45,733 nucleotides of DNA from a virus. Positions 1 to 45,733 of the stretch are shown here, piece after piece. The first letter of the stretch is position 1. Every line of letters starts with the position of its first letter. The stretch lies in the IMG/VR virus record IMGVR_UViG_3300032753_000055, positions 1-45,733 of that record; one strand, written 5' to 3'. The position numbers and the translations under genes were made by a program. The notes beneath the pieces were generated by a model that was not told the origin of the DNA, ran no database searches, and saw only the letters and a program-made list of their open reading frames with translations.

Positions 1-46
1 AAGGTCAGGTCGGCTCATTCGTCGCTCAACACGTTACTACAAAGTG
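1..46. repeat. 46-bp terminal direct repeat (left copy)
   Basis: Bases 1-46 are identical to bases 45688-45733. The repeat lies inside the DNA polymerase reading frame, and both copies are in the same frame. It is therefore most likely the overlap of a circular assembly rather than a packaged terminal repeat, since a true terminal repeat placed inside the polymerase gene would split an essential gene. Removing one copy gives a unit of 45,687 bp. Confidence 0.9.
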
Positions 47-291
47 CAGGGGCTATCATCGCTAAGCAGTGGCTTGTTCAAATCAAAAAGAACTTGACAG
101 CAGAAAAGATACCTTATAAGCTAGTGGCATGGATTCACGACGAAGTTCAGATTGAGACTCCAGAGCAATATGGGGACACAGTCGGTAAGCTTGTGGTAGA
201 ATCAGCCAAAGAAGCAGGAGAGATATTGAAGTTCCGTTGTCCAGTCGGGGCTGAATATGGAGTAGCAGAAAACTGGGCAGGTAGTCATTAA
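1..291 (+). CDS. DNA polymerase, family A, C-terminal part (joins 44323..45733)
   Basis: This is the 3' end of the replicative DNA polymerase whose 5' part is at the right end of the window. Base 1 is codon 456 once the 46-base overlap is removed, and the joined protein is 551 residues. It carries polymerase motif C, WIHDEVQ, with the catalytic His-Asp-Glu at about residues 501-503. The stop is at 289-291, followed by an extended -10 element and the SSB gene. The family is that of T7 gene 5 and bacterial Pol I. Joining the ends is certain from the matching frame; processivity factor use is unknown. Confidence 0.93.
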   Translation, partial: KVRSAHSSLNTLLQSAGAIIAKQWLVQIKKNLTAEKIPYKLVAWIHDEVQIETPEQYGDTVGKLVVESAKEAGEILKFRCPVGAEYGVAENWAGSH

Positions 292-303
292 ATGTGTTAT
301 AAT
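274..303 (+). promoter_or_regulatory. Possible extended -10 promoter before the SSB gene
   Basis: TATAAT at 298-303 is preceded by TG one base upstream, giving an extended -10. A weak -35 (TGGGCA, 274-279, 4 of 6 matches) lies 18 bases upstream. It sits just after the polymerase stop and 42 bases before the SSB start, so it could boost SSB and exonuclease expression. The -10 is seen directly; activity is inferred. Confidence 0.45.
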
Positions 304-344
304 AGTAAAGTAGTAAACAACTAACCAAATTAAAGGAAGGTACT

Positions 345-764
345 ATGAGTACAATTACAGTAGCAGCAGAGTTATATTGGCCTATCTTGTTTGACCCAAT
401 GAAGAGTCGTTTTGCTCCAGATAAACCTCCAGTATGTACAGTGAACTTAGCTAACTTATCAGCAAAGGCTGTAGAGGAATTGAAAGCAATCAATCTATCT
501 CCTCGCAAGGATGAAGTTAAACGCCCTAACGAAGGTCATTTGATTACTTGCAAGAGCCAGTATGCCTTCAATGTATTTAACAAAGATGGTACTGAGTTTG
601 ACAAGACTAAGAAGATTGGTAACGGTACTAAAGCTACAGTGAAGTTGAAAGCTTACAAGTACAAGAACGTGCCTGGTTATGGTGCTCAAATCCAAAGTAT
701 TACTATTCAGGAATTGGTTGAATATAACCCAACTCCTGTAGAAGAACTGGACGACGTACTGTAA
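345..764 (+). CDS. Single-stranded DNA-binding protein
   Basis: A 139-residue protein that probably coats single-stranded DNA at the phage fork. It has the make-up of T7 gp2.5-type SSBs: a basic, aromatic beta-rich core (for example KLKAYKYKNVPGYG near residues 101-114) and an acidic C-terminal tail, EELDDVL, the element that contacts polymerase and helicase in this class. A strong Shine-Dalgarno (AAGGAAGG) precedes the ATG. It lies between polymerase and 5'-3' exonuclease, and its stop overlaps the exonuclease start, which fits the T7 order gp2.5/gp5/gp6 in function though not in exact arrangement. The assignment rests on tail, size and context. Confidence 0.72.
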   Translation: MSTITVAAELYWPILFDPMKSRFAPDKPPVCTVNLANLSAKAVEELKAINLSPRKDEVKRPNEGHLITCKSQYAFNVFNKDGTEFDKTKKIGNGTKATVKLKAYKYKNVPGYGAQIQSITIQELVEYNPTPVEELDDVL

Positions 765-1447
765 TGGCACATGTCTTAATAGATGGCGACATTATTGGGT
801 ATCGCATAGGCTTCTCTACCGAAGAGGAGAATGAGAAGATTGTGCTTTCTCGTTGTGCGACTTTTATTGAGACAATGCTCTGGGAGGACTTGCAAGCTGA
901 GTCCTACCAGGGCTACTTAACTGGCAAGGATAATTTTAGAAATGAAATCGCCATTACTGCTCCATATAAAGGCAATCGCAGTGCCCCTAAGCCTAAGCAT
1001 CTCCAGCTCATTCGAGATTATCTTGTCTCAGCTTGGGACTTCAAAATCTCCATCGGGCAAGAAGCAGATGATGAGATTGCGATAGCTCATGTAGAAAACA
1101 ATTACGAAACAATCATCGCTAGTATTGACAAAGATTTCTTACAGCTTAAAGGTAAGCATTGGAACTTTGTTAAGAAAGAAATGACAGAAGTAAACGAAAA
1201 AGAAGCATTGCTCAACTTTTATAGACAGGTACTTACAGGTGACAGAGTTGATAACATCATTGGTCTCAAAGGCATCGGCCCTGTTAAGGCTGACAAAATC
1301 CTCAACGGATGTACAAGTGCAGCAGAAATGTATACTGCTTGTGTCGAAGCTTACGGTGGCTCAGAAGAACGAGTTACTGAGAACGCAAGACTGCTTTGGC
1401 TTAGAAGAACCGTCGGAGAAATCTGGCAGCCTCCAAGGATGGACTAA
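764..1447 (+). CDS. 5'-3' exonuclease / flap endonuclease (T7 gp6-like)
   Basis: A 227-residue nuclease of the FEN/T5-exonuclease family that removes RNA primers and may degrade host DNA. Visible signatures are the N-terminal metal-binding LIDGDIIGYR (residues 4-13), the acidic EADDEIA (about 101-107), ASIDKDFLQL (about 118-127), and the helix-3-turn-helix GDRVDNIIGLKGIGP at about residues 157-171, which holds duplex DNA in this family. Its ATG overlaps the SSB stop, so the two are probably translationally coupled. Length matches short phage members that lack extra C-terminal domains. Confidence 0.9.
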   Translation: MAHVLIDGDIIGYRIGFSTEEENEKIVLSRCATFIETMLWEDLQAESYQGYLTGKDNFRNEIAITAPYKGNRSAPKPKHLQLIRDYLVSAWDFKISIGQEADDEIAIAHVENNYETIIASIDKDFLQLKGKHWNFVKKEMTEVNEKEALLNFYRQVLTGDRVDNIIGLKGIGPVKADKILNGCTSAAEMYTACVEAYGGSEERVTENARLLWLRRTVGEIWQPPRMD

Positions 1448-1714
1448 ATGAACTTTATTGATTATTTTGCAATTATCTTTTTTAGTTTTATTTTAATATT
1501 TATGCTTTGGGCAATGGCAATGTCTTTTTTTATTGCGTGTAATGAATATAAAATAGATGAAATAAAATATATTAAACATTGTGATATTTATTTTAAAGAC
1601 CTTGATTTAATATGGAGATTAACTGCTGATAAAAGAACTGGTAATAATTCTTTTACTTTAGAAAGTGGAGAGCTTATTGAATTTTATAATAAGTATTTTA
1701 AAGGAAATTTATGA
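1448..1714 (+). CDS. Small membrane protein, AT-rich insert
   Basis: An 88-residue protein of unknown function. Residues about 5-30 form one strongly hydrophobic, Phe/Ile/Met-rich membrane segment; the rest is a soluble, charged tail rich in Ile, Lys and Tyr. The start follows the exonuclease stop directly, and the end overlaps the next start by four bases (ATGA). The DNA is clearly more AT-rich than the genes on either side, with many AAA, TTT and ATT codons, suggesting recent acquisition. It could be a membrane anchor or superinfection-exclusion factor, but nothing in the sequence decides this. Confidence 0.65.
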   Translation: MNFIDYFAIIFFSFILIFMLWAMAMSFFIACNEYKIDEIKYIKHCDIYFKDLDLIWRLTADKRTGNNSFTLESGELIEFYNKYFKGNL

Positions 1715-2310
1715 TATTACTACTAAACAACCACGGACATTCTGACGAAAGGTTTAACGAATATGTTCAACGAGCTTCTCAATTCTATGCTGAGCAGTTA
1801 TTCCCTAAGCAGCTCCTCAGGCATATTGTTGTTACTGTTAAGTTCAATAAGCATTTGGATGCTTTTGGATATACTAACGTTGAAAAAAGGAACACCAAAG
1901 GAGCAGCAAGAGAATTCTTAATTGAACTCCATCCTTATATCTCAGGTAAAGAAATCTTAAAAACATTAGCACATGAATTTGTACACATTAAACAATATGC
2001 AGACGGGGATTTAAATGAAGAGCAAACGCAGTGGCAAGGTGAACCCATCGACAGTGATGCAATGGACTATTACGAACTGCCTTACGAAATCGAAGCCCAC
2101 GGTAGAGAAATCGGTCTATTCACTAACTTTGCTAAAAAAGAAAATCTCTGGAATATTTTCGAAGGTGTTAGTAACCCTGACATCCCTGTTAAACCAGTGC
2201 CGATAGGGTGGCTACATGAAGACAAGTTCAGCAAAACAAAAAGGCCGACTGTTGCAGCAAGTAGTGAGGGATTCAATCCTGAAACACTTTCCTCACCTGA
2301 CGGAGCGTGA
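1711..2310 (+). CDS. Zinc metallopeptidase-like protein (HExxH)
   Basis: A 199-residue protein with the zinc-binding motif AHEFVHIKQ (HExxH, near residues 90-98) and a downstream glutamate in PYEIEAHGRE (near 127-136) that could be the third ligand. This arrangement is seen in SprT-like and other phage metallopeptidase-like proteins. Substrate is unknown. The last 95 bases are shared in another frame with the resolvase gene, so the C-terminal tail of about 30 residues is low-complexity and may be dispensable. It overlaps the preceding gene by four bases, consistent with one transcript. Confidence 0.7.
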   Translation: MILLLNNHGHSDERFNEYVQRASQFYAEQLFPKQLLRHIVVTVKFNKHLDAFGYTNVEKRNTKGAAREFLIELHPYISGKEILKTLAHEFVHIKQYADGDLNEEQTQWQGEPIDSDAMDYYELPYEIEAHGREIGLFTNFAKKENLWNIFEGVSNPDIPVKPVPIGWLHEDKFSKTKRPTVAASSEGFNPETLSSPDGA

Positions 2311-2563
2311 TGTTAAAAGTACTTCGATGGGCGCACAAGGCGAAGATGTACAATTATCTGAAGCTGGTTTTTCAGCATTTTCGTACGGAATAGAATGCAA
2401 AAACCTAGCAAAGATAGCAGTCTATAAGTTTTATGAGCAAGCAACAACTCATGGCAACGGTGAGCCGTTAGTAGTAGTAAAGCAAAACAGAAGCAAACCT
2501 TTAGCAATAGTAGACTTAGAACACTTTATACAACTAGTGAGGAAAGCAAATGAGCAAAGATAG
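2216..2563 (+). CDS. PD-(D/E)xK nuclease, Holliday-junction-resolvase type
   Basis: A 115-residue basic nuclease. It shows the PD-(D/E)xK core: an Asp in QGEDVQLS and the ExK triad in GIECKNL (residues about 58-64), followed by a beta strand PLVVVKQNRSKPL. This layout matches small phage resolvases with the role of T7 endonuclease I, trimming branched DNA before packaging. The ATG has a GGGTGG ribosome site and starts 95 bases inside the metallopeptidase gene. T7 also places endonuclease I among its replication genes. I infer junction cleavage from family resemblance only. Confidence 0.75.
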   Translation: MKTSSAKQKGRLLQQVVRDSILKHFPHLTERDVKSTSMGAQGEDVQLSEAGFSAFSYGIECKNLAKIAVYKFYEQATTHGNGEPLVVVKQNRSKPLAIVDLEHFIQLVRKANEQR

Positions 2564-2879
2564 ATTTGATTTAGAGTCAGCAATCATGGACGTATGGGCT
2601 ATCAAAGACCAAGTAAACAATCTTCGATGGAGAATGTACGACCATCCTGAGCTATTGTCAGAGGACGAAGAACACAATCACATTATGGCTATTGAATATT
2701 CTATTGAATTAAACTGTTCGAAGCTTATGGATACTTTTTGCCAAGTGTTTCAACTCAATGAGTATGCTACTGATGAGATGAAAGCATTACGTAACCGCAT
2801 TCTTACTAAGATTGAACAAGATGCTGACAAAGAAGACTTTCATACTTTCCCAGTACCTAAAAAAGGTAAAAAGAAATGA
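2550..2879 (+). CDS. Hypothetical acidic helical protein
   Basis: A 109-residue protein I do not recognise. It is predicted mostly helical and acidic in the middle (SEDEEHNH), ending in a basic tail KKGKKK. Its start overlaps the resolvase stop and its stop overlaps the HNH start (ATGA), so it is in the replication operon. Before the HNH gene arrived, its stop probably overlapped the start of the 3'-5' exonuclease. Confidence 0.6.
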   Translation: MSKDRFDLESAIMDVWAIKDQVNNLRWRMYDHPELLSEDEEHNHIMAIEYSIELNCSKLMDTFCQVFQLNEYATDEMKALRNRILTKIEQDADKEDFHTFPVPKKGKKK

Positions 2880-3349
2880 AGATTTGTACAAAGTGTAATG
2901 AACAAAAATCTTTAATAGAGTATCCAAAAGATAAAACTAAAAAAGATGGAGTACATACACAATGTAAAGTTTGTCATAGGGAAAGAAACAAAAATAAAAG
3001 ATTAACTGACCCTGTTTGGCGTGAAAAAGCTAACGCAAAATCAGCAGCATATAGAAGTAAATTTCCAGATAAAAATAAACAAAGTATTCGTAATGCTACT
3101 TTAAAAGCAAAATATGGAATAACTTCAAAACAGTATGAAGAACTTTTTAAAAATCAAGGTTATTGTTGTGCTGTTTGCGGAAGGAAAGAAAGCAAAGGAT
3201 ATGGTAAAATGCCAGTAGACCATAACCATGTAACAGGAAAAGTAAGAGGAATTTTGTGCCAGCCTTGTAATGTAACACTAGGTAAAGTTGAAGAAAAAGA
3301 AGAAATACTTTTATCTTTGATTAAATATTTGAGAAAAAATAAGGAGTAA
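2876..3349 (+). CDS. Homing-type HNH endonuclease (endonuclease VII family)
   Basis: A 157-residue free-standing endonuclease. N-terminal CTKC and CKVC pairs form a zinc site; the C-terminal catalytic part has CAVCG, PVDHNHVTGKVRG and CQPCN, the recombination endonuclease VII pattern. Between them is a Lys-rich linker. The DNA is very AT-rich. It sits exactly between a hypothetical gene (ATGA overlap) and the exonuclease, whose normal ATG is missing. The last codons and stop (AAGGAGTAA) provide the ribosome site for the next gene. Such genes spread by cutting relatives that lack them; target site here is unknown. Confidence 0.88.
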   Translation: MKICTKCNEQKSLIEYPKDKTKKDGVHTQCKVCHRERNKNKRLTDPVWREKANAKSAAYRSKFPDKNKQSIRNATLKAKYGITSKQYEELFKNQGYCCAVCGRKESKGYGKMPVDHNHVTGKVRGILCQPCNVTLGKVEEKEEILLSLIKYLRKNKE

Positions 3350-23222: not shown

Positions 23223-23587
23223 TAACTGAACTGTACTTTGAAGGTAAATTGAATTGAATCGCTTGTATTCAAAGGAATGCCTGTAAAGTCACCCTTAACA
23301 AATAAGTTACCAGAAGTAGCTGCATCAAATAAACCAGCATTTGTGATTGTCTCACTCGTACCTGCAGTTTGTGTTGCAACAACTTGGAATGTGTCATTTG
23401 TAGAAGATGTTGTTACCTGAGATACTGTACCACTAACTCGTGGAAGTACTTCAGTAAATAATGTTGTATCAGTAGCACCAGTAGTACCTGCACCTGTTCC
23501 CCAGCCTACATATTGAGGAGTAGTACCACCGCCATTTAAACGGTTGGTAATAATAGCCCTACCTGTATTAACTAGGAGTGTGCTCAT
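23222..23587 (-). CDS. Structural protein, tail-associated
   Basis: A 121-residue beta-rich protein (YVGWGTGAGTTGATDTTLF, ending IQFTFKVQFS) of a type widespread among phage tail genes. Its start is overlapped by the last 20 bases of the HNH gene, whose KGNK codons (AAAGGAAATAAA) form its ribosome site. Exact role unknown. Confidence 0.65.
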   Translation of the reverse strand: MSTLLVNTGRAIITNRLNGGGTTPQYVGWGTGAGTTGATDTTLFTEVLPRVSGTVSQVTTSSTNDTFQVVATQTAGTSETITNAGLFDAATSGNLFVKGDFTGIPLNTSDSIQFTFKVQFS

Positions 23588-24116
23588 ATTTATTTCCTTT
23601 TTGTTGATTTACCTTTGCAGGTAAAACTTGAAGATTGTTCCAAACATGTAAACCACAAACATTTTTACCTTGTAAAGGAATTATGTGGTCAATATGCCAC
23701 TTAAATCCAGTTACTTTTTCTCTAAGTTTAGCAAGATGAGCAGCTTCTTCTGTTATAAGTTCTGTTAATTCAGAATCCCATCTAGCAGTAGCTTTCATTT
23801 TATTGTATTTATATTTAAGAACAGTAGCTAATCTTTTATGTTTATTAAGTTTAGACCAAGCGGTTATAGTTTGTTTTATCTTTTCTTTATTTTTAAATCT
23901 ATATTCCTTTGCGTATTCTTTTGCTTGTTTTTTTACTTCAGGCAAATTCCTATGCTCCGTATCGTAAGAATTATCTTTGTATCGTTGTTTTCTTTTAATG
24001 TTAGAACATTCTTTACAAGCAGTTTTAAAACCACTCGATGTAGATTTATCTTTATGAAAAGCTGTTATTTGTTTAATAGCTTTACAGATAGAACAATGTT
24101 TCATCTGTGTAGCCAT
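23568..24116 (-). CDS. Homing-type HNH endonuclease
   Basis: A 182-residue endonuclease. N-terminal CSICKAIKQ and CKEC give a zinc site; a long Lys-rich linker follows; the catalytic part reads WHIDHIIPLQGKNVCGLH and NNLQVLPAKVNQQKGN. The C-terminal half is clearly paralogous to the HNH at 32179-32610. It starts inside the end of a 50-residue gene and ends inside the next gene. An alternative ATG at 24104 (MKHC) is possible; GGAG before 24116 favours the longer form. Confidence 0.88.
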   Translation of the reverse strand: MATQMKHCSICKAIKQITAFHKDKSTSSGFKTACKECSNIKRKQRYKDNSYDTEHRNLPEVKKQAKEYAKEYRFKNKEKIKQTITAWSKLNKHKRLATVLKYKYNKMKATARWDSELTELITEEAAHLAKLREKVTGFKWHIDHIIPLQGKNVCGLHVWNNLQVLPAKVNQQKGNKYEHTPS

Positions 24117-30139: not shown

Positions 30140-32182
30140 CTATTCTGGTGCTGCTTCTCCCTCTGCTGGTGCAGGTTGAGACATTTCATTCATGTGCTTC
30201 TCAAGGTCCATCATAGTTTTGAGAGCAGTTTGAATTCCTTCATTCTTAGCTTTAGCTGCTCCGATTTGAGCATCTAGCATTGCAATATCTTGACCGTGTC
30301 TAATACCACCAGCTTGCTCTACAGCAAGGATAGCATCAGCTTCTAACTTGTGAATCTTAGCTTGATTGATTTCAACGTCTTTCATCATCTTCATCATTCC
30401 AAGCTTAAACTGCATTTGCATGTCAGCTTGTTTAGCTTGTTGCTTCATCATTTCGATTTGTACCTTCTCAGATGGTCCTGGCTTAATAGCGTTAGGTCCT
30501 TTAGGGTCTGGAAGAAGTTGGTCGATGTTATTTACCTTCATTGCTTTGAGGTACGTCTTCTGAGCTTCGTACATACTCATGCCAGGAGTGGTAGAAGCTA
30601 ATTGAAGCACTGCTTGAGCTTGTTGAATACGTTGTGTATCAGAAACAATGTTAGGGTCTGCTGCAGGGCGTACGTCAGATACAGGACCTGAGAAGTCGTC
30701 AGCGTCGATGAAGTTTTGACCTTGATCGCTGTTGTAATCTTCAATACCTTGAAGGTACAGTTGATTCAAACGATACAACTTACGGAACTCATCTTTAAGA
30801 CTACGGTAGGTACGTTTAAAGATACCAGAGAAAATCTTCATTCCCTGTTCAGCCATCGTCCTTGTAGTTTCAGCAGCAGTATTCTGACCTGGATTCTGGC
30901 CTGACAAAATGTCAACAGAACCACCAATACGCTCACCGTAATTAATAAGCATACTGAGCAAAGTAAACAGAACTTGAGAAGGCTCACGCACTGGGAGAGG
31001 CATGATACCTTTACGGAGGTCATCACCAGTTGTATCGACATGTTTCCACTCTAAAGGTGCGAAGTTGTAGTTTCCACCTCGGAGCTTGATACCACGGGAC
31101 AAGAAACCACCTGCTGTATTGGCCATTGTGCCTGTGTCAATAAGCTGGTTGAGAAGGGTATCGATACTCTGATTAAGTGGTCCAAGAAGACTTCCGAAAC
31201 CGAGGTCATAAAAGCCACCATCAGGTGAGGGAATGAAAGGGAATTTAGTAAAGTATGTTTCTGCTTTGATGGAAAGAACATTGCCTTTATTGTCTCTTTC
31301 AATAGAAGTTTCAAAGTAACGGGCTACAATACGCAGCACTTGTTTGGTATCACGACGCATCCAGATGATGTACGGCTCAGCATAACCATCTCCATCAAAG
31401 TCAATGAAGGTATGCTGTTCAAGAATCTCGTAAGGGGTAGAGTCATCTACTGAGTCAGGGGCAGACATGCCTTGTGCTTTGTTCTGAGCCAAAGTCATGT
31501 TTGACTGAGGAACAGCAGCAGGGCCAGCTTCAGTCATTTCGCACCACAAACCACGAGCTACACGCTCATAGATGTCGTTTTTAGAAAGGTATTGAATTTG
31601 AGTAATACGTGGGGACGTATCTAAATGCTTAGTCCAGTAGTTGACAACAAAGTCTTTAGCAAGGATATGCTCAGAGATGTTGTACTTACAAATAGGGTCA
31701 AAGTAAGATTTTTTAAAAGCACACCCAACGATAGGCTGAGAAATAAGAACTCTATCCATCTCAGATTCCCAAGTAGTATCTTGTTCAAGAATCTGGTAGG
31801 ACATAAATTGACTTACACGATGGGCACGTGCATCTTTAGCACCTGTAGGGTCGTCTCCAATTACACGACACTGAACAGGGGTTTCCCCATTGATAAGTAC
31901 AGGATAACTGCGAGCATGAAACTGCAAAGCAGCAATAGTGATAAGTGGAAATTTGACATTTGAAGCTCCAGGCCAAGGGAAAGACTTAGCTTCAGCAACT
32001 TGCAAAGCAAGCTTCATAGCTTCTTCAGTACGTTTTTCCCAAGCAGAACGAGACTCCAAGTCAGCCTGGAATCCCTTGTAGACGTTATAGCTAATCGTAT
32101 TGAGAGTATCTGCATCCAATATCTCAGCGATGTTTGGAAGGGAGACAATCTCGTCTAGGTTAAGTTCAGTATTTAGTTTCAA
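30140..32182 (-). CDS. Portal protein (head-tail connector)
   Basis: A 680-residue portal. Recognisable blocks are SFPWPGASNVKFPLI, the central YEILEQHTFIDFDGDGYAEPYI, GSLLGPLNQSIDTLLNQLIDTG, and a Gln/Met/Lys-rich helical C-terminus as in podovirus barrels. The first codon is TTG, overlapping the HNH stop; no in-frame ATG lies nearby, and AAGGG from the HNH 3' end is the ribosome site. Dodecameric ring at the packaging vertex, docking terminase and tail. Confidence 0.88.
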   Translation of the reverse strand: MKLNTELNLDEIVSLPNIAEILDADTLNTISYNVYKGFQADLESRSAWEKRTEEAMKLALQVAEAKSFPWPGASNVKFPLITIAALQFHARSYPVLINGETPVQCRVIGDDPTGAKDARAHRVSQFMSYQILEQDTTWESEMDRVLISQPIVGCAFKKSYFDPICKYNISEHILAKDFVVNYWTKHLDTSPRITQIQYLSKNDIYERVARGLWCEMTEAGPAAVPQSNMTLAQNKAQGMSAPDSVDDSTPYEILEQHTFIDFDGDGYAEPYIIWMRRDTKQVLRIVARYFETSIERDNKGNVLSIKAETYFTKFPFIPSPDGGFYDLGFGSLLGPLNQSIDTLLNQLIDTGTMANTAGGFLSRGIKLRGGNYNFAPLEWKHVDTTGDDLRKGIMPLPVREPSQVLFTLLSMLINYGERIGGSVDILSGQNPGQNTAAETTRTMAEQGMKIFSGIFKRTYRSLKDEFRKLYRLNQLYLQGIEDYNSDQGQNFIDADDFSGPVSDVRPAADPNIVSDTQRIQQAQAVLQLASTTPGMSMYEAQKTYLKAMKVNNIDQLLPDPKGPNAIKPGPSEKVQIEMMKQQAKQADMQMQFKLGMMKMMKDVEINQAKIHKLEADAILAVEQAGGIRHGQDIAMLDAQIGAAKAKNEGIQTALKTMMDLEKHMNEMSQPAPAEGEAAPE

Positions 32183-32610
32183 AATTTATTACCCTTGGAA
32201 AGGTTTTCTTTAGCAGGAATAACTCGCAAGTTGTATTCAACGTGGAGACCACAAACATTTTTACCTTGTAACGGAACAATGTGGTCAACATGCCAAGTAT
32301 CTTCTGTATATTTATTAAACATTACAGCTAACTGATACTTAGCTTGTATAGCTGTTAAATTAGCCCAACTAGGGGTTGCATTTAATTGTGTAGCTCTGTA
32401 CTTATAAGTTAAAGCGTTTTTAACGCCTCTGTTTCTTTTATCCCACGCACGGTTTTTAGCATTTACTTTAGTGCGATTATTAATAGCCCACTCTTTGTCT
32501 TCTGCTGCTTTGCAAGAAATACAACGTGACCTGTAGCCAGACTTTGTTCTAGAGTTTTTAGGAAAAGAACTTAATTCTAACATGTTTTTACATTTAGTAC
32601 AAGTCTTCAA
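32179..32610 (-). CDS. Homing-type HNH endonuclease
   Basis: A 143-residue endonuclease with CTKCKNM and CISC zinc pairs and a catalytic end WHVDHIVPLQGKNVCGLH and NLRVIPAKENLSKGN, almost the same as the C-terminus of the HNH at 23568-24116. The start is TTG, one base after the terminase stop. The stop overlaps the portal start. It separates large terminase from portal, normally adjacent genes. Confidence 0.87.
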   Translation of the reverse strand: MKTCTKCKNMLELSSFPKNSRTKSGYRSRCISCKAAEDKEWAINNRTKVNAKNRAWDKRNRGVKNALTYKYRATQLNATPSWANLTAIQAKYQLAVMFNKYTEDTWHVDHIVPLQGKNVCGLHVEYNLRVIPAKENLSKGNKF

Positions 32611-39751: not shown

Positions 39752-41326
39752 ATGTCAGTATTTTTAAAACATATTCCTTGTGAGAAGTGTGGTAGCTCAG
39801 ATGCTAATTCACTCTTTGACGATGGACACCAACACTGCTTTGCTTGTGGTCACCACGTCCACGCAGATTCAGAGTTCACAGCAACACCAGCGAGGAAGAA
39901 ATCGATGATTGAAGTTAAAGGTGAAGTTAAGTCTATCTCTGACAGGGGAATCACTACGGCTACTTGTCAGACCTACGGTGTCACCCAAGATGGTACGTGT
40001 CAGCACTATCCCTATGCGAATGAAGAAGGGGCTATCATCGCCTTAAAAACTCGCACAGTTGAAAACAAAACCTTTGCTATTGCTGGTGACTGGAAAGGTG
40101 CTACCTTGTTTGGTCAAAATGTATTCCCTAAAGGTGGTAAGACTGTAACTCTACACGAAGGTGAATTAGACGCTCTAGCAGGCTTTCAGATGTCAGGTAG
40201 TAAGTACCCTAACGTCTCTATCCGTAACGGTGCTCAAGCTGCTTTAAAAGACGTTAAACAGGCTTATGAATGGTTATCCTCCTTCGAAGAAATCTATATC
40301 TGTTTTGATGCTGATGAGCCAGGCCAGAAAGCAGCGAATGAAGTTGCTGAAATATTAGGCAACAAGTGCAAGATTGTTAAACATTTAGGGAGTTTTAAAG
40401 ATGCGTGTGACTACCTTAAAGGAGGCAATACTGCCGAATACGTTAAGAGATGGTGGGCAGCAGAGCAATGGACTCCAGATGGAATCATCGCAGGGGTTAC
40501 GCTATGGGATGAGGTTAATCGCCCTGTGGAGAAATCGTCAGCCCTCTATCCTTGGGCAGGAGTCAACGAGCTTACCTACGGTATCCGCCCAGCAGAACTT
40601 ATTACCGTTACGGCAGGCTCAGGACTAGGAAAGTCACAGTTCTTGCGTGAGATTCTCTGGCACTTGATTAAAACAACAGACCACAATATTGGACTGATGT
40701 TCATGGAAGAATCTGTACGGAAGACTGCACTAGGGATTATGTCCCTCCATTTAAACAAGCCACTACACTTACCTGATGCACAGGTATCAGAAGGAGAACT
40801 AAAGAATGCGTTTGACGTCACTATGGGTACGGATAGGTTATTCTTTTGGGATAACTTTGGTTCTACTGACATTGATAATGTTATTAACCGTATTAGATAC
40901 TTTGCAAAAGCCACCGATTGTAAGTATGTTTTTCTTGACCACATTTCTATGGTGGTTAGTGCTCAAGGTAACGGTGATGAAAGAAAGTCAATAGATGAGT
41001 TGATGACTAAGCTTCGGATGCTGGTACAAGAGACAGGCATTAGTTTAATTGCTGTATCACATCTTAAGAGGCCAGAGAATAAAGGACACGAGGAAGGAGC
41101 TGCAACATCTTTATCTCAGCTTCGTGGCTCAGGCTCTATTGCTCAGCTTAGTGACATTGTGATTGGTTTGGTTCGTAATGCTCAAGCTGAAGACCCTATT
41201 GAACGCAATACCACTAGAGTTTCTATCTTAAAGAATCGCTTTAGCGGATTAACTTCACCACACTGTGCTTCATTGTTATACAATAAAGACTCTGGACGGA
41301 TGCTCGAAATGGAGGATGTACTATGA
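39752..41326 (+). CDS. Primase-helicase (T7 gp4-like)
   Basis: A 524-residue bifunctional replication protein. The zinc-binding primase domain has CEKC and CFAC (residues 10-32); TOPRIM shows HEGELDAL (about 132) and CFDADEPGQ (about 183). The helicase has Walker A GSGLGKS (about 289-295), FMEES, FLDHISMVVS and VSHLKRPE, then an arginine-finger region near ILKNRFSG. Synthesises primers and unwinds DNA with the family A polymerase. Length fits compact gp4 relatives. Confidence 0.95.
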   Translation: MSVFLKHIPCEKCGSSDANSLFDDGHQHCFACGHHVHADSEFTATPARKKSMIEVKGEVKSISDRGITTATCQTYGVTQDGTCQHYPYANEEGAIIALKTRTVENKTFAIAGDWKGATLFGQNVFPKGGKTVTLHEGELDALAGFQMSGSKYPNVSIRNGAQAALKDVKQAYEWLSSFEEIYICFDADEPGQKAANEVAEILGNKCKIVKHLGSFKDACDYLKGGNTAEYVKRWWAAEQWTPDGIIAGVTLWDEVNRPVEKSSALYPWAGVNELTYGIRPAELITVTAGSGLGKSQFLREILWHLIKTTDHNIGLMFMEESVRKTALGIMSLHLNKPLHLPDAQVSEGELKNAFDVTMGTDRLFFWDNFGSTDIDNVINRIRYFAKATDCKYVFLDHISMVVSAQGNGDERKSIDELMTKLRMLVQETGISLIAVSHLKRPENKGHEEGAATSLSQLRGSGSIAQLSDIVIGLVRNAQAEDPIERNTTRVSILKNRFSGLTSPHCASLLYNKDSGRMLEMEDVL

Positions 41327-41508
41327 ATGGATTAACACCAGAAGAGATTAGTAAAACAATTACAGATGCTTTTGAACGGGGGAAAATGTTCGGATACGCT
41401 GAAGGTAGAAAATCTATTAAAGCTGAAATGGATAAACTCAAAAATGAAAATGATTTCTTTAAAAGTATTTTGAATGATGTTGAATTACTCAAAAAGGACA
41501 AAGAGTAA
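41323..41508 (+). CDS. Small coiled-coil protein
   Basis: A 61-residue charged helical protein (LTPEEISKTITDAFERGKMF...) with a predicted coiled coil (EMDKLKNENDFFKSIL). Four-base overlap with the helicase gene. It precedes the mosaic gene array and shows the same short, coiled style. Function unknown. Confidence 0.57.
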   Translation: MNGLTPEEISKTITDAFERGKMFGYAEGRKSIKAEMDKLKNENDFFKSILNDVELLKKDKE

Positions 41509-41526
41509 TAAACGCAAAGGGATGAT

Positions 41527-41685
41527 ATGAACGCACTAGAACTTGCTGATGAATTAAATTACAAAATAACTTGTGTTTACGATGATATGACTGTTGTTAT
41601 TGAAAATGGAGTAGAAATTTCAAGGGTATATCAAGATAACAGAATTAAATTCAATCCTTTTGAATTATTGGGGATTCCAAAATGA
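41527..41685 (+). CDS. Mosaic-array protein 1 (MNAxELADEL start)
   Basis: A 52-residue protein. Its start, MNALELADEL, is almost the same as that of the next gene (MNAIELADEL), then it differs completely: a beta-rich CVYDDMTVVIENGVEIS. AAAGGGATG lies before the ATG. It ends in an ATGA overlap. It lacks the LRQQQ and KAQEK blocks of its fellows. Confidence 0.55.
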   Translation: MNALELADELNYKITCVYDDMTVVIENGVEISRVYQDNRIKFNPFELLGIPK

Positions 41686-42059
41686 ATGCAATTGAACTAG
41701 CTGATGAACTATGGGTTTGTTTAGAATCTTCAATTATTAGCGATTCAGATACTAGAGATTTAGTTATGGATGCAGCCACCATGCTACGCCAGCAACAAGC
41801 TGAAATAGAGGCGTTGAAATCTTTTGTTAAACCAATAGTAGCTCATGGAGATGATTGCATCGGAAATTGGGATGGAGATGAATTGCAAGATTTAGCCGTA
41901 AAAACAGGTCTTTTAATTGAGGTTGAAAAAACTCAATTTTGTAATTTAGGAAAAGAAAACTTTGTTGGTTGTCCGTGCAGAGAATATCACTGGGGTGAAG
42001 AATCTTGGATATGTTTACAGACTGCTAAATTTTTATTAGATGAGGCACAAGAGAAATGA
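41682..42059 (+). CDS. Mosaic-array protein 2
   Basis: A 125-residue protein joining the blocks MNAIELADEL, ATMLRQQQAEIEALK (about 32-46) and a terminal EAQEK. The unique middle has a possible metal site (CNLG, CPC, HW). It ends in the repeated GGCACAAGAGAAATGA junction. Predicted coiled coil in the LRQQQ part. Function unknown. Confidence 0.6.
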   Translation: MNAIELADELWVCLESSIISDSDTRDLVMDAATMLRQQQAEIEALKSFVKPIVAHGDDCIGNWDGDELQDLAVKTGLLIEVEKTQFCNLGKENFVGCPCREYHWGEESWICLQTAKFLLDEAQEK

Positions 42060-42283
42060 AAGCAAATGAATTAGAAGGAATAAATAGCCCACATAATGCT
42101 TGCTGTTATAGATATAAATGTCGCCAGCAACAAGCTGAAAATGAGGCGTTGAAAGCAAAGACACTAACAGATGAGGAAATAAACAAATTGTGGGCAAAAT
42201 CAAGTGAAGATGGTATTGCCATGCAACAAGGGTTTACTACACAACAACATTACTTTGTTTATTTAATACTAAAAAAGGTGTAA
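42056..42283 (+). CDS. Mosaic-array protein 3
   Basis: A 75-residue protein with MKANELEG at the start, CRQQQAENEALKAK in the middle and TLTDEEINKLWAKS following. The LTDEEI block recurs in the 94-residue gene of the array. It lacks the KAQEK end. A Cys-rich part (CCYRYKC) lies before the QQQ block. Confidence 0.58.
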   Translation: MKANELEGINSPHNACCYRYKCRQQQAENEALKAKTLTDEEINKLWAKSSEDGIAMQQGFTTQQHYFVYLILKKV

Positions 42284-42288
42284 TAGAA

Positions 42289-42546
42289 ATGAGCTGCGGA
42301 TTATGCGGATTACCTAAAGATACTGGTGCTATTGGTTCTGTATTGCCACAATGTATTTGCCATTGGAAACATACACCATACACCAATACATCGCAGGAAC
42401 TAAACGCTGGTGGCGAACCAGTTAAAAATGCTACTTATTGGAAAAGACAACACGATAGATTGTTAATAAGTCTAAATGTCAGCGCAATAAAAATAGCTGA
42501 ATTGGAAAAAGAATTAGCAATACTAAGAAAGGCACAAGAGAAATGA
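42289..42546 (+). CDS. Mosaic-array protein 4, cysteine-rich
   Basis: An 85-residue protein with an N-terminal CGLCGLP...CIC-H zinc-like motif, a TYWKRQHDRLLISL helix and the ending ELEKELAILRKAQEK. It ends in the junction repeat. Function unknown; could bind metal or nucleic acid. Confidence 0.6.
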   Translation: MSCGLCGLPKDTGAIGSVLPQCICHWKHTPYTNTSQELNAGGEPVKNATYWKRQHDRLLISLNVSAIKIAELEKELAILRKAQEK

Positions 42547-42827
42547 ATAAGCCAATTGCTTGGACTACAGACGAATTAAATACTGATAACTGGGGCGATA
42601 CAGATTGGCAAATTACTGTTACCAAAGAAAAATGGTCAGATAGACAAAAGCCACTTTACACCCATCCAGCAAACCTAACAGATGAGGAAATTTGGAAAGT
42701 TTGTTTAGAAGGCGGTCATGTAGATTGTATTGCTGATGTTGATTGGGAAATCAATGGAATTGAAGAATTAAAGCATCAATATTTAAGACTATGCAAAGCA
42801 ATACTAAGAAAGGCACAAGAGAAATGA
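42543..42827 (+). CDS. Mosaic-array protein 5
   Basis: A 94-residue protein with a Trp-rich start (MNKPIAWTTDELNTDNW), ANLTDEEIWKVCLEG in the middle and CKAILRKAQEK at the end. PIAWTT...KPLYTHP resembles small proteins in many phages near replication genes. Ends in the junction repeat. Confidence 0.6.
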   Translation: MNKPIAWTTDELNTDNWGDTDWQITVTKEKWSDRQKPLYTHPANLTDEEIWKVCLEGGHVDCIADVDWEINGIEELKHQYLRLCKAILRKAQEK

Positions 42828-42943
42828 TTAGCAAAGCAAGTGCAGTGTTTGGAGTGGGACAACTCGCTCGATTGCTAACGGTATTGGTTGGCTGCCGTCT
42901 GCACAGTCAACCCCCTAATTTAAGAAAGGCACAATATAAATGA
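42824..42943 (+). CDS. Mosaic-array remnant
   Basis: A 39-residue frame, MISKASAVFGVGQLARLLTV onward, ending LRKAQYK. Its DNA is less AT-rich than the array around it. It keeps a variant junction (GGCACAATATAAATGA). It may be a degraded cassette rather than a functional gene. Confidence 0.4.
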   Translation: MISKASAVFGVGQLARLLTVLVGCRLHSQPPNLRKAQYK

Positions 42944-43272
42944 ACGAAAATGAAACATGCCCTAATTGTGGTGAGTATCACAGTTGTACCGACTTGATAC
43001 GCGAGCAACAAGCTCAAATTGATACCTATAAGTCACAAAACAGCAGTCAAATTGATGCCTATAGGTATGAAACCATGCTACGCCAGCAACAAGCTGAAAT
43101 AGATAAAGTAAATGCGGAATGGGCGCAAGCTGCAATGGCATTGGGTAAATGCGTTCAAGAAAACCATGAACTTAAATCTGAAATTGAGGCATTGAAGATA
43201 AAGCATGACGCAATAGCATGTTCAAGTTGTGCGTGTGGTTTTATTAAAAGAGGAAAGACACAAGAGAAATGA
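42940..43272 (+). CDS. Mosaic-array protein 6
   Basis: A 110-residue protein: CPNCGEYHSC zinc-type start, IREQQAQIDTYK, then TMLRQQQAEIDKVNAEW and IEALKIKHDA, ending GKTQEK. Contains two QQQ/EQQ coiled-coil blocks, suggesting internal duplication. CSSCACG near the end adds a second Cys cluster. Confidence 0.6.
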   Translation: MNENETCPNCGEYHSCTDLIREQQAQIDTYKSQNSSQIDAYRYETMLRQQQAEIDKVNAEWAQAAMALGKCVQENHELKSEIEALKIKHDAIACSSCACGFIKRGKTQEK

Positions 43273-43448
43273 AGCTTTTTTACTACTGCAATATTGGTCA
43301 TGGATTTTGGTTTAGATTTTTTGGCTATGGTTTATGGGTCAAACAAACAAAGCATCATCAGCCATTGTTTAGCGAAAGAAATGGTTACACCAATGTTTAC
43401 AAGTTTTTTGGTTTGACTTTTAAATTTTTAAAGGCACAAGAGAAATGA
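43269..43448 (+). CDS. Mosaic-array protein 7
   Basis: A 59-residue aromatic-rich protein (MKLFYYCNIGHGFWFRFFGY) ending FLKAQEK. The core is unlike other array members. Similar short Phe/Tyr/Trp proteins occur in phages; function unknown. The junction repeat is at both ends. Confidence 0.55.
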   Translation: MKLFYYCNIGHGFWFRFFGYGLWVKQTKHHQPLFSERNGYTNVYKFFGLTFKFLKAQEK

Positions 43449-43813
43449 ACGCAAATGAACTTATTGAAAATGCTAGAAAAATTATAGGGAAGCCATTAGG
43501 CGAATTAAGAGCATTTCAATTGTTGCCACAAATTCAATTATCTGCCGATATGCTACGCCAACAACAACGCACTATAGACGGCGACAAAAGACTGATTGAT
43601 TTGTTGTATGAAAAGATAACCAAGTACGAACTACGCCACGCCGAGCAAAGAATGCGTATTGAGCAATTGGAGCACATGATGGAAAAGGCAAGCCACTACG
43701 AAGCTATGGCACACGCTGGAGGCTTTGAGGCTGGCTACCAAGCTGCTCAAGCAAACTTTAATAAAGAAAATCCTGTTAAAGAAGTCTTTAATAGAAAGGC
43801 ACAAGAAAAATGA
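43445..43813 (+). CDS. Mosaic-array protein 8
   Basis: A 122-residue helical protein: MNANELIENARK start, ADMLRQQQRTIDGDK, then a long His/Glu/Arg coiled coil (RHAEQRMRIEQLEHMMEK) and a terminal RKAQEK. Its DNA keeps ATGCTACGCCA at the LRQ block. Likely oligomer via coiled coil. Confidence 0.6.
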   Translation: MNANELIENARKIIGKPLGELRAFQLLPQIQLSADMLRQQQRTIDGDKRLIDLLYEKITKYELRHAEQRMRIEQLEHMMEKASHYEAMAHAGGFEAGYQAAQANFNKENPVKEVFNRKAQEK

Positions 43814-43989
43814 GAGATGTCGGCAAAGGCGATAAGAAACGTCCTGTATTGAATCAAGAACAGTTTGATAAAAGCTGGGATGAAATCTTTAATAAAGATA
43901 AGAAGATTCCTCCTAGTGATTTAGAAATAAAGATTGACATTGCTAGTGATGAGAAGCGTGTAGTTGTTAACAAGACTTGGACGTTTTAA
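43810..43989 (+). CDS. Hypothetical protein after the array
   Basis: A 59-residue basic protein (MRDVGKGDKKRPVLNQEQFD...). It starts at the last junction repeat but does not carry the array blocks. Ends VVVNKTWTF. Function unknown. Confidence 0.55.
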   Translation: MRDVGKGDKKRPVLNQEQFDKSWDEIFNKDKKIPPSDLEIKIDIASDEKRVVVNKTWTF

Positions 43990-44204
43990 TGAATAGGTAT
44001 GTAAAACACTTGGCTTGTTTTGTGTTAGGTGTTACAGTTACCTTAACAGCAGAAGAAGTAGTAAAGATTTATGATACTAAATGTTATGATACACTGAGCA
44101 GTGTTTCTTTCTATACTGTTAAAGATGGAATAGAATATTGCTTTTACCGTAAACGAGACTATCCTTACCGAATTAGCGGTGGGATTATAGGAGTTAAAGA
44201 ATGA
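43989..44204 (+). CDS. Small exported or membrane protein
   Basis: A 71-residue protein (MNRYVKHLACFVLGVTVTLT...) with one N-terminal hydrophobic segment, then a Tyr/Lys-rich domain with two Cys. The ATG overlaps the previous stop (TAATG). Possibly periplasmic. Confidence 0.55.
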   Translation: MNRYVKHLACFVLGVTVTLTAEEVVKIYDTKCYDTLSSVSFYTVKDGIEYCFYRKRDYPYRISGGIIGVKE

Positions 44205-44332
44205 AAATAGTTACTATCATTATTTTGTTTTGTCTAGTAACACTAGCACAAGCAGAAACTACAACGATTGTACAGTCTGATGGTACAGTAGTTACTTGCG
44301 TAAGAAACGGAACACTTATTCAATGCTTCTAA
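44201..44332 (+). CDS. Small secreted protein with signal peptide
   Basis: A 43-residue protein. Residues 1-18 (MKIVTIIILFCLVTLAQA) form a classic signal peptide with AQA cleavage site; the mature part has about 25 residues with two Cys (VTCVRNGTLIQCF) that may form a disulphide. GGAG eight bases upstream; overlaps the polymerase start by ten bases. Confidence 0.55.
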   Translation: MKIVTIIILFCLVTLAQAETTTIVQSDGTVVTCVRNGTLIQCF

Positions 44333-45733
44333 AAACTGTAGTCCTCGACATAGAAACAAACCTAGCCCATACTGTTATTTGGTGCTGTGTTACTCTACAT
44401 CGTGAGACTGGAGAGATTAAGACATGGACAACACCAGAAGGATTAAAGGAGTATTTACAAGATGCGACACACATTGTTGGTCACAATATTATTAGTTTTG
44501 ACGCTTTTCTTCTTAATCGGCTGTGGCTCACCAAGATTAGGAAATCTCAGCTTCACGATACTTTGCTTCTTAGTCGGCTGTCTGACGCTAGTCGTGATGG
44601 TGGTCATAGTCTAGGTAACTGGGGTTTAATGCTTGGTTACAATAAGATAGACTTTGAAGACTTCGACGGTGGTTTGACAGATGAGATGGTAACGTATTGC
44701 ATACGAGATGTAGAACTTACATCTAAAGTATATGATATGTTAATAGCAGAGATAGAACAGAACAAGATTAGCCCTGAAGCTGTAAAGTTAGAATATGATG
44801 TACAAGTAATTTTATCGGAGATGGAACGTAATGGATTCAAGCTGGACGTACCCTATGCACAGACGTTGCTCTGTGAGATTAAAACCGAGATGGCAGAGAT
44901 TGAAGAAGCCTTGCAAAAGATTTTCCCTCCGATTGTTACAGAACGTACTTCTGAGAAAACTGGAAAGAGACTTAAAGATGATGTGGAAGTCTTCAACGTC
45001 GGTTCCCGTCAACAGATTGCAAAGCGTCTTATTTCTAAGGGATGGAATCCTACAAAGACTACAGAGAAGGGACAGATTATTGTCGATGAAACGATACTTA
45101 GTGAAGTGTCGATTCCAGAAGCAAAGCCTATTGCAAGATATTTAATGTTACAAAAGAGAGCCTCACAATTAGATTCATGGTTAGAAAAACTAGGAAAGGA
45201 CGGAAGAGTTCATGGTAAAGTTATTGGTTTTGGTGCTGTTACTGGCAGAGCTACCCATAGTAGCCCTAATATGGCTCAAGTGCCAGCAGTGCGAGCTACT
45301 CTGGGTAAAGAGTTCCGTTCGTGTTGGACGGTTGATAAGGGCAATGTCCTCGTTGGTATTGATTTGTCTGGGATTGAATTGCGTTGTTTTGCTCATTACC
45401 TTAATGACTTGGAGTACATAAATGAGACGGTCAACGGTGATGTCCACACGAGAAATCAGCAAGCTTTCGGGGTTGAGACCAGAGACCTTGCGAAGACTGT
45501 CCTTTACGCAACTTTGTACGGAGCCTCACCTACCAAGATTGGTACAGTTATTGGTGGCACTGCGAAGCAAGGAGCCAACATTATCAATAGCTTCAGTAAA
45601 GCAATTCCAGCGTATGCGAGGCTTAAATCCAAAGTTGAACGCCTTGCTGAAAAGGGAACACTACCTGGGCTTCATGGTTATCAACTTAAGGTCAGGTCGG
45701 CTCATTCGTCGCTCAACACGTTACTACAAAGTG
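44323..45733 (+). CDS. DNA polymerase, family A with 3'-5' exonuclease (continues at 1..291)
   Basis: The replicative polymerase, first 470 codons (455 before the repeat). The exonuclease domain has VVLDIETN (residues 5-12), VGHNIISFDAFLL (ExoII) and YCIRDVELT (ExoIII). Polymerase motif A is GIDLSGIELRCF with catalytic D347; motif B is RDLAKTVLYATLYG with R387, K391 and Y395. Tyr395 is at the site of Pol I Phe762 and T7 Tyr526, which favours fast synthesis and poor ddNTP discrimination. Full length is 551 residues, shorter than T7 gp5 (704). Confidence 0.95.
   Translation, partial: MLLKTVVLDIETNLAHTVIWCCVTLHRETGEIKTWTTPEGLKEYLQDATHIVGHNIISFDAFLLNRLWLTKIRKSQLHDTLLLSRLSDASRDGGHSLGNWGLMLGYNKIDFEDFDGGLTDEMVTYCIRDVELTSKVYDMLIAEIEQNKISPEAVKLEYDVQVILSEMERNGFKLDVPYAQTLLCEIKTEMAEIEEALQKIFPPIVTERTSEKTGKRLKDDVEVFNVGSRQQIAKRLISKGWNPTKTTEKGQIIVDETILSEVSIPEAKPIARYLMLQKRASQLDSWLEKLGKDGRVHGKVIGFGAVTGRATHSSPNMAQVPAVRATLGKEFRSCWTVDKGNVLVGIDLSGIELRCFAHYLNDLEYINETVNGDVHTRNQQAFGVETRDLAKTVLYATLYGASPTKIGTVIGGTAKQGANIINSFSKAIPAYARLKSKVERLAEKGTLPGLHGYQLKVRSAHSSLNTLLQS
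45688..45733. repeat. 46-bp terminal direct repeat (right copy)
   Basis: Identical to bases 1-46 and in the same reading frame of the DNA polymerase. Marks the closure point of the circular map. Confidence 0.9.

Follow-up and report, generated by a model that had tools for sequence, protein, structure and literature searches.

Gene Array and Junction Sequence

The subject of this analysis is an array of small genes in the virus record IMGVR_UViG_3300032753_000055 of IMG/VR, whose 45,733 nucleotides (nt) were analysed at full length and are called the window. The same 46 nt lie at both ends of the window (1-46 and 45688-45733), which fits a circular or terminally redundant phage contig. On the plus strand, ten small co-directional open reading frames (ORFs) run from 41323 to 43989, between the genes of a primase-helicase and of DNA polymerase A. 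An exact 4-nt ATGA overlap of two ORFs was found at eight boundaries (41682, 42056, 42543, 42824, 42940, 43269, 43445, and 43810). A 19-nt sequence, AAAGGCACAAGAGAAATGA, hereafter the junction, occurs seven times with at most two mismatches, three times exactly, and always on the plus strand, while 0.00 copies are expected from 100 dinucleotide shuffles. An eighth copy, decayed to four mismatches, begins at 42274, and the gene upstream of it is cut short there by an early stop. An earlier note, made from the letters of the window alone, had described a shuffled gene array with a repeated stop/start junction, and the seven copies and eight overlaps bear this out. The junction copies are as follows.

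42041..42059, plus strand, junction copy with two mismatches
42528..42546, plus strand, exact junction copy
42809..42827, plus strand, exact junction copy
42925..42943, plus strand, junction copy with two mismatches
43254..43272, plus strand, junction copy with one mismatch
43430..43448, plus strand, exact junction copy
43795..43813, plus strand, junction copy with one mismatch

The genes of the array are called cassettes, and loci in other contigs are given by L numbers.

41527..41685, plus strand, cassette 1, 52 amino acids (aa), start block MNALELADEL
41682..42059, plus strand, cassette 2, 125 aa, start block MNAIELADEL, coiled block MLRQQQAEIEALK, end DEAQEK
42056..42283, plus strand, cassette 3, 75 aa, MKANEL, RQQQAE, and LTDEEI, decayed end junction
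42289..42546, plus strand, cassette 4, 85 aa, 94% identical to a relative in L232 with different neighbours
42543..42827, plus strand, cassette 5, 94 aa, PxAW start module, PLYTHPANLTDEEI block, AILRKAQEK end
42824..42943, plus strand, cassette 6 (MISKAS), 39 aa, DNA about 90% identical to a cassette of L059 with the middle in another frame
42940..43272, plus strand, cassette 7, 110 aa, two coiled blocks
43269..43448, plus strand, cassette 8, 59 aa, MKLFYYCNIGHGFW, also present in four further array contexts, of which one has another type of junction
43445..43813, plus strand, cassette 9, 122 aa, MNANEL start

Of the 189 sites with an ORF upstream, 186 have the upstream gene open in the KAQEK frame of the junction, and at 217 of 224 sites the junction opens an ORF of at least 28 codons. 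For most copies the Shine-Dalgarno pairing is weak, at about -2.6 to -2.9 kcal/mol, and two more copies reach -5.6 and -5.8; relatives have other types of junction with strong pairing (-7.6 and -8.4). The note had assigned three jobs to the junction. Those of C-terminus and start codon hold, but with such weak pairing the job of ribosome site is better replaced by translational coupling through ATGA. Such overlaps are known to support coupling and reinitiation in bacteria (PMC6728339). No significant RNA structure was found in the junction or in the blocks described below, and shuffled versions of the 39-nt end block fold just as well as the block itself (z 0.64).

Shared Blocks Inside the Genes

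The coiled block CGCCAGCAACAAGCTGAAAT occurs within three mismatches at 41787, 42122, 43000, and 43081 (0 expected), and a weaker copy lies at 43547-43578. The copies at 41778 and 43072 are identical across 32 nt. Thus, the block recurs at the DNA level, as had been noted. LTDEEI, listed by the note as another shared block, is indeed present but limited to two genes of the window (17 nt identical at 42164 and 42675).

The internal and end blocks EPVAW, LYTHPAKTLTDEEI, RQQQAEIEALK, and FARAILRKAQEK are uniform at synonymous sites. The same 39-mer is found in 97 of 111 FARAILRKAQEK ends and the same 15-mer in 84 of 94 EPVAW starts, so that the blocks have not diverged like old paralogues, a case that the note had set against its own reading. 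The internal block YTHPAKTLTDEEI, which lies far from any start codon, has a codon homozygosity of 0.84-1.0, as compared with 0.24-0.67 for the same residues elsewhere. Among the KAQEK-stop sites of the fetched loci, 181/204 have the same 18 letters, where the scan pattern permitted 32 forms. The same 18 nt are found in 16 of the 21 KAQEK ends of loci that were found through the helicase.

Homology Ends at Blocks and Junctions

Pairs of genes with halves that are 92-99% identical and other halves that are unrelated are common. For instance, the C-terminal 204 nt of cassette 9 are 95% identical to a gene of L253 in which the N-terminal part differs. Within genes, homology ends at a block in 342 of 642 cases, while 182 are expected, often at LYTHPAK/TLTDEEI or QQQAEI. 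Sixty proteins with the order EPVAW-LYT-LTDEE-KAxEK have 45 N-modules and 54 C-modules in 60 combinations, and all of the recurring modules (9/9 N-modules and 5/5 C-modules) have several partners. At the level of whole loci (711 homology ends), 34% of the ends lie at most 10 nt from a junction (5.1% at random; standard deviation, 0.8) and 63% lie equally near to any block (11.7% at random; standard deviation, 1.1). Thus, homology turns on and off at the blocks, where the note had proposed to look for breakpoints. Its view of cassette swapping is supported and can be extended to internal blocks of genes, while homologous recombination, which the DNA-level uniformity of the blocks supports indirectly, would be the chemistry only by inference.

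Relatives with the Same Flanks and Different Cassettes

Relatives were collected through the helicase, independently of the junction, and a few were added from the junction scan. Both flanks are present in 60 loci besides the window, some of which are one phage assembled twice. The gap between the flanks is 275-3047 base pairs (bp) long and has 0-5 exact junctions. The flanking genes of the window, and the small gene that follows the helicase gene, are as follows.

39752..41326, plus strand, T7-like primase-helicase (Pfam DnaB_C, Toprim_2, and Zn_Ribbon_Prim), the fixed left flank; relatives have the array at the same place
41323..41508, plus strand, first small gene after the helicase, 61 aa, with an ATGA overlap with the helicase gene
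43810..43989, plus strand, flank gene MRD(G/V)GKGDK.RP at the right end of the array, conserved and present in many relatives
43989..44332, plus strand, two more small flank genes of 71 and 43 aa, conserved in relatives
44323..45733, plus strand, DNA polymerase A, the fixed right flank, which extends beyond the end of the linearised contig

The gene content between the flanks varies, and the MRDGGKGDK gene and the two small genes before the polymerase gene recur in closer relatives. Thus, the gene set of the note stands for the cassettes but not for its last gene (43810-43989), which, like the next two, is a conserved flank gene. Relatives whose helicase ends are about 98-100% identical still differ in gene order or content. 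The same helicase and polymerase therefore enclose arrays that gain and lose genes, and not the fixed order that would speak against shuffling. In the cultured Pelagibacter phage HTVC115P, the gap between primase and polymerase is 17 bp.

Two comparisons show where the changes lie. L206 and L138 are unrelated just upstream of a junction and more than 99% identical from its first base. L137 and L138 have helicase ends that are identical over 1000 nt, and their arrays differ by a 527-bp block that is cut exactly at ATGA.

The neighbours of junction-abutting genes were compared between contigs, with other genes of the same contigs as controls. At a DNA identity of 93-99%, both neighbours differ in 69% of 61 pairs (controls, 0% of 104), and at 80-93% they differ in 79% of 47 pairs (controls, 3% of 233). 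At an identity of at least 99%, where the same phage has been resampled, the neighbours are retained in array and control genes alike.

The MKLFYYCNIGHGFW gene is found elsewhere in the settings of L224, L225/L227, L226/L151, and L228/L229. In L229 it bears another junction, AAAGTAAGGGGAGAGAAATGA, which is common to its neighbours there. Thus, the MKLFYYCNIGHGFW core arrived with, or adopted, the junction of its L229 array. In the MISKAS cassette (42824-42943 of the window and 3350-3469 of L059), two compensating 1-nt indels shift the frame of the middle, which reads VGQLARLLTVLVG in one and GGTTRPIANGIGW in the other, and the cassette ends early in L158 (at 9023). It is either a decaying cassette or DNA that is retained without its peptide.

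Distribution of the Junction and Nature of the Cassettes

The junction repeat was sought in metagenome virus contigs, as the note had proposed. An exact scan of IMG/VR for AARGCACARGARAARTGA gave at least 120 stretches, many of which have 2-5 copies on one strand, and a scan for the 30-mer GCAATACTAAGAAAGGCACAAGAGAAATGA likewise gave at least 120 stretches. A DNA search with the array in an annotated phage collection gave one weak match (a Manatee Spring record). A search of a genome collection gave seven metagenome-bin contigs from mixed phyla. Junction-bearing L128, L131, L133, and L134 are binned to Acidobacteriales, a cyanobacterium, and Nitrosotalea, and are probably misbinned phage contigs.

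The core genes that lie directly after or near the junction vary; among others, they encode RecT, an SNF2-like helicase, YqaJ exonuclease, and other types of DNA polymerase A. In several other phages (L022, L027, L077, L083, L235, L262, and L280), the junction ATG is itself the start codon of a YqaJ-type exonuclease gene (MTTFTTEDR...), so that the spread of the junction has reached a gene for recombination. The pool of junction-adjacent genes encodes 92 mutually dissimilar small proteins after removal of the block-bearing ones. Grouping of the loci by shared proteins (single linkage) put nearly all of them into one group and was uninformative.

A second junction type, GARAAAGCGAGTGAGAAATGA (L172 and L175; L215-L221), serves gene ends in two frames, one ending in ...LIRESE* before the ATG and the other in ...KKASEK* overlapping the ATG. 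The two-frame use (RESE and KASEK in L172/L175) was considered as a sign that DNA and not peptide is retained; it is real but rare (7 stretches). Since the main junction keeps one frame, it was not taken as a main argument. A parallel style of cassette was found at the same locus in L187, L189, and MW202701 (50818-51084; Manatee Spring), with the form ...EWVGLTDEE...AIEAKLKEKNT*. Its tail codons include a strong Shine-Dalgarno sequence (AAGGAG).

Almost none of the cassettes has a Pfam or PHROG assignment. Scans of the window cassettes and of representative modules gave no family above weak coiled-coil or chance-level scores, and thus the function of the cassettes cannot be read from profiles. 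The AlphaFold model of the PxAW gene product (mean predicted local distance difference test score, 70; predicted template modelling score, 0.48) has no match in the PDB. A search for an EPVAW protein in isolated phages found none, and no pertinent paper on the RKAQEK motif emerged from a literature search.

Elsewhere in the window, a pair of small HNH-like ORFs lies on the minus strand among the structural genes (23568-24116 and 32179-32610; 75% identical over 112 nt of DNA). Other ORFs that seem HNH- or GIY-YIG-like, judged by eye only, lie at 2876, 16297, 25651, and 29179.

Interpretation and Alternatives

I favour, with a probability of roughly 0.78, the reading that the window carries a variable cassette array at a fixed place, whose translationally coupled units recombine at short repeated boundary sequences, both at gene ends and inside genes. 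As far as aligned sequences go, the blocks, their uniformity at the DNA level, the gain and loss of cassettes at a fixed place, the recombinant genes, and the breakpoints at blocks are documented. Each unit would open at an ATG, and its last codons would encode the near-constant junction that ends in the ATGA of the next unit. The junction would supply a stop codon and an overlapping start codon, so that any order of units may be translatable, probably by termination-reinitiation. The junction, EPVAW, LYTHPAKTLTDEEI, RQQQAEIEALK, and FARAILRKAQEK may serve as short DNA homology for recombination between phages that meet in one host. Such exchange would shift whole units and N- or C-terminal parts among phages and keep the blocks uniform. 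Its chemistry may be strand annealing, either by a phage annealing protein of the gp2.5 type together with an exonuclease or by host RecA. The window phage encodes a gp2.5-like single-stranded DNA-binding/annealing protein and an exonuclease, and RecT or YqaJ is present in some array phages, which would suit strand annealing at repeats of 15-40 nt. Selection may have favoured phages that rapidly replace their small early accessory proteins as they compete with the host.

Several points weigh against this reading. Recombination itself is read from patterns, and no event was seen directly. The Shine-Dalgarno pairing of the junction is weak, and its role in translation is a presumed one. Interdependence affects both the ends of high-scoring segment pairs and the gene pairs, and a simple, purpose-written gene caller underlies the counts. 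Loci chosen by the junction inflate its uniformity, but not that of EPVAW, LYTHPAK, and QQQ. The clean and recent indel between L137 and L138 shares only ATGA and a few scattered bases at its left edge; thus, some events do without a long repeat.

Selection at the RNA or protein level could instead have kept the blocks as a start signal, a C-terminal tag, or a dimerisation motif, while illegitimate recombination occurred anywhere and only in-frame products that respect the boundaries survived. The mere 4 nt and scattered bases at the L137/L138 edge would be expected then, as would the retained KAQEK frame (186/189 sites). ATGA overlaps work in bacteria at large (PMC6728339), and illegitimate recombination has been regarded as an attractive way to account for most phage mosaics (PMC3029335). 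However, YTHPAKTLTDEEI is codon-uniform at a distance from start codons, the blocks have no significant RNA structure, and the homology between L206 and L138 sets in precisely with the junction's first base, which makes this explanation unlikely.

It is also conceivable that short repeats common to the phages of a sample joined unrelated contigs during assembly, given that all array loci are metagenome assemblies and that the repeats of 18-39 nt are common to many contigs. Such repeats span far less than a standard short read. Moreover, identical arrays were found in different datasets (the window, L135, and L136 over 3100 nt; L142, L143, and L207; the L180 type in six copies), and breaks within genes preserve the reading frame, so that assembly chimeras are very improbable. 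An integron-like system, with the junction as the recognition site of a recombinase, would explain why it is short, directional, repeated, and placed at cassette edges. However, the end block is part of a coding sequence and has no single-strand structure (z 0.64), and unrelated internal blocks also serve as swap points. No integrase-like gene was evident beside the inspected arrays or among the small genes between helicase and polymerase, where no systematic or integrase-profile search was made. Site-specific recombination is thus hardly credible.

The array at a fixed place may belong to something wider. It is tentatively proposed, at somewhat less than even odds, that many otherwise different phages share a common pool of plug-compatible cassettes. 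A standard junction and internal joints, kept uniform by exchange, would let phages take, drop, fuse, and re-pair small genes in frame, as in exon shuffling but without introns or a dedicated recombinase.

Comparison with Known Systems

The ninR region of lambda likewise has small co-directional genes linked by ATGA and a shared sequence before the starts that also encodes similar C-termini. In lambda (J02459), ninB/ninC, ninC/ninD, ninG/ninH, and ninI/Q share a purine-rich stretch and GCATGA, encoding ...RAA, EAA, EAA, and EGA. Kroger and Hobom termed the nin region a chain of interlinked genes, as cited in PMC7166090. The sequence and the place differ, however: the lambda links are purine-rich with a Shine-Dalgarno-like GGAG, whereas the window junction mostly pairs weakly, and the window array shows no homology to nin genes by Pfam and PHROG profiles and lies between primase-helicase and DNA polymerase A, not between O/P and Q. 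Lambda has four such links, while the window junction is found in hundreds of contigs.

Homologous exchange at short gene-boundary sequences is the essence of the boundary-sequence model (Susskind and Botstein 1978; Clark et al. 2001, for HK620), which was proposed for P22 and HK620. PMC3029335 states that boundary sequences are undetectable at most mosaic borders and describes genes 67/68 of mycobacteriophage Island3, which have an 18-residue C-terminus in common, at the DNA level too. Unlike those cases, the boundary sequences of the window are abundant, repeated within a genome, common across phages, and found also inside genes.

Lambda Ea22/Ead_Ea22 (PMC10834534) resembles the cassettes in being a small early-region protein made up of an N-terminal part, a coiled coil, and a C-terminal part that can be exchanged. 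It is a single gene and not an array of many genes with one junction, and no cassette has a Pfam or PHROG match to Ead_Ea22. The start-associated sequence (SAS) of cluster K mycobacteriophages, GGGATAGGAGCCC, is a short non-palindromic repeat directly before the starts of many non-structural genes of different families. It has AGGAG, while the window junction is wholly coding with a weak Shine-Dalgarno sequence, and the part of PMC3203893 at hand does not describe exchange at SAS. Recent swaps of protein parts between phages were reported in PMC10684548, mainly in receptor-binding proteins and endolysins; its available text describes no conserved DNA block as a swap point. As for integron cassette arrays, no foldable attC-like site was found here (z 0.64 for the end block). 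By their descriptions, as far as these were available, none of the compared systems combines a cross-phage junction with internal joints. Thus, the principle is known from the lambda ninR chains and the boundary-sequence model, and what is new is the scale and the two-level modularity.

It is a long-standing question whether phage mosaics arise by homologous exchange at boundaries or by illegitimate joining followed by selection. It has persisted mainly because the boundary sequences can seldom be seen (PMC3029335). In this array they are visible, repeated, and short, with fast turnover at a fixed place whose empty and filled states are known. Crossover mapping, the minimum homology, and the role of the annealing protein are thus directly testable. 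The array also explains a class of 'hypothetical' phage proteins that have common ends and unrelated middles and confuse family annotation. It is a rare, large, and testable example of how patchwork phage genomes form.
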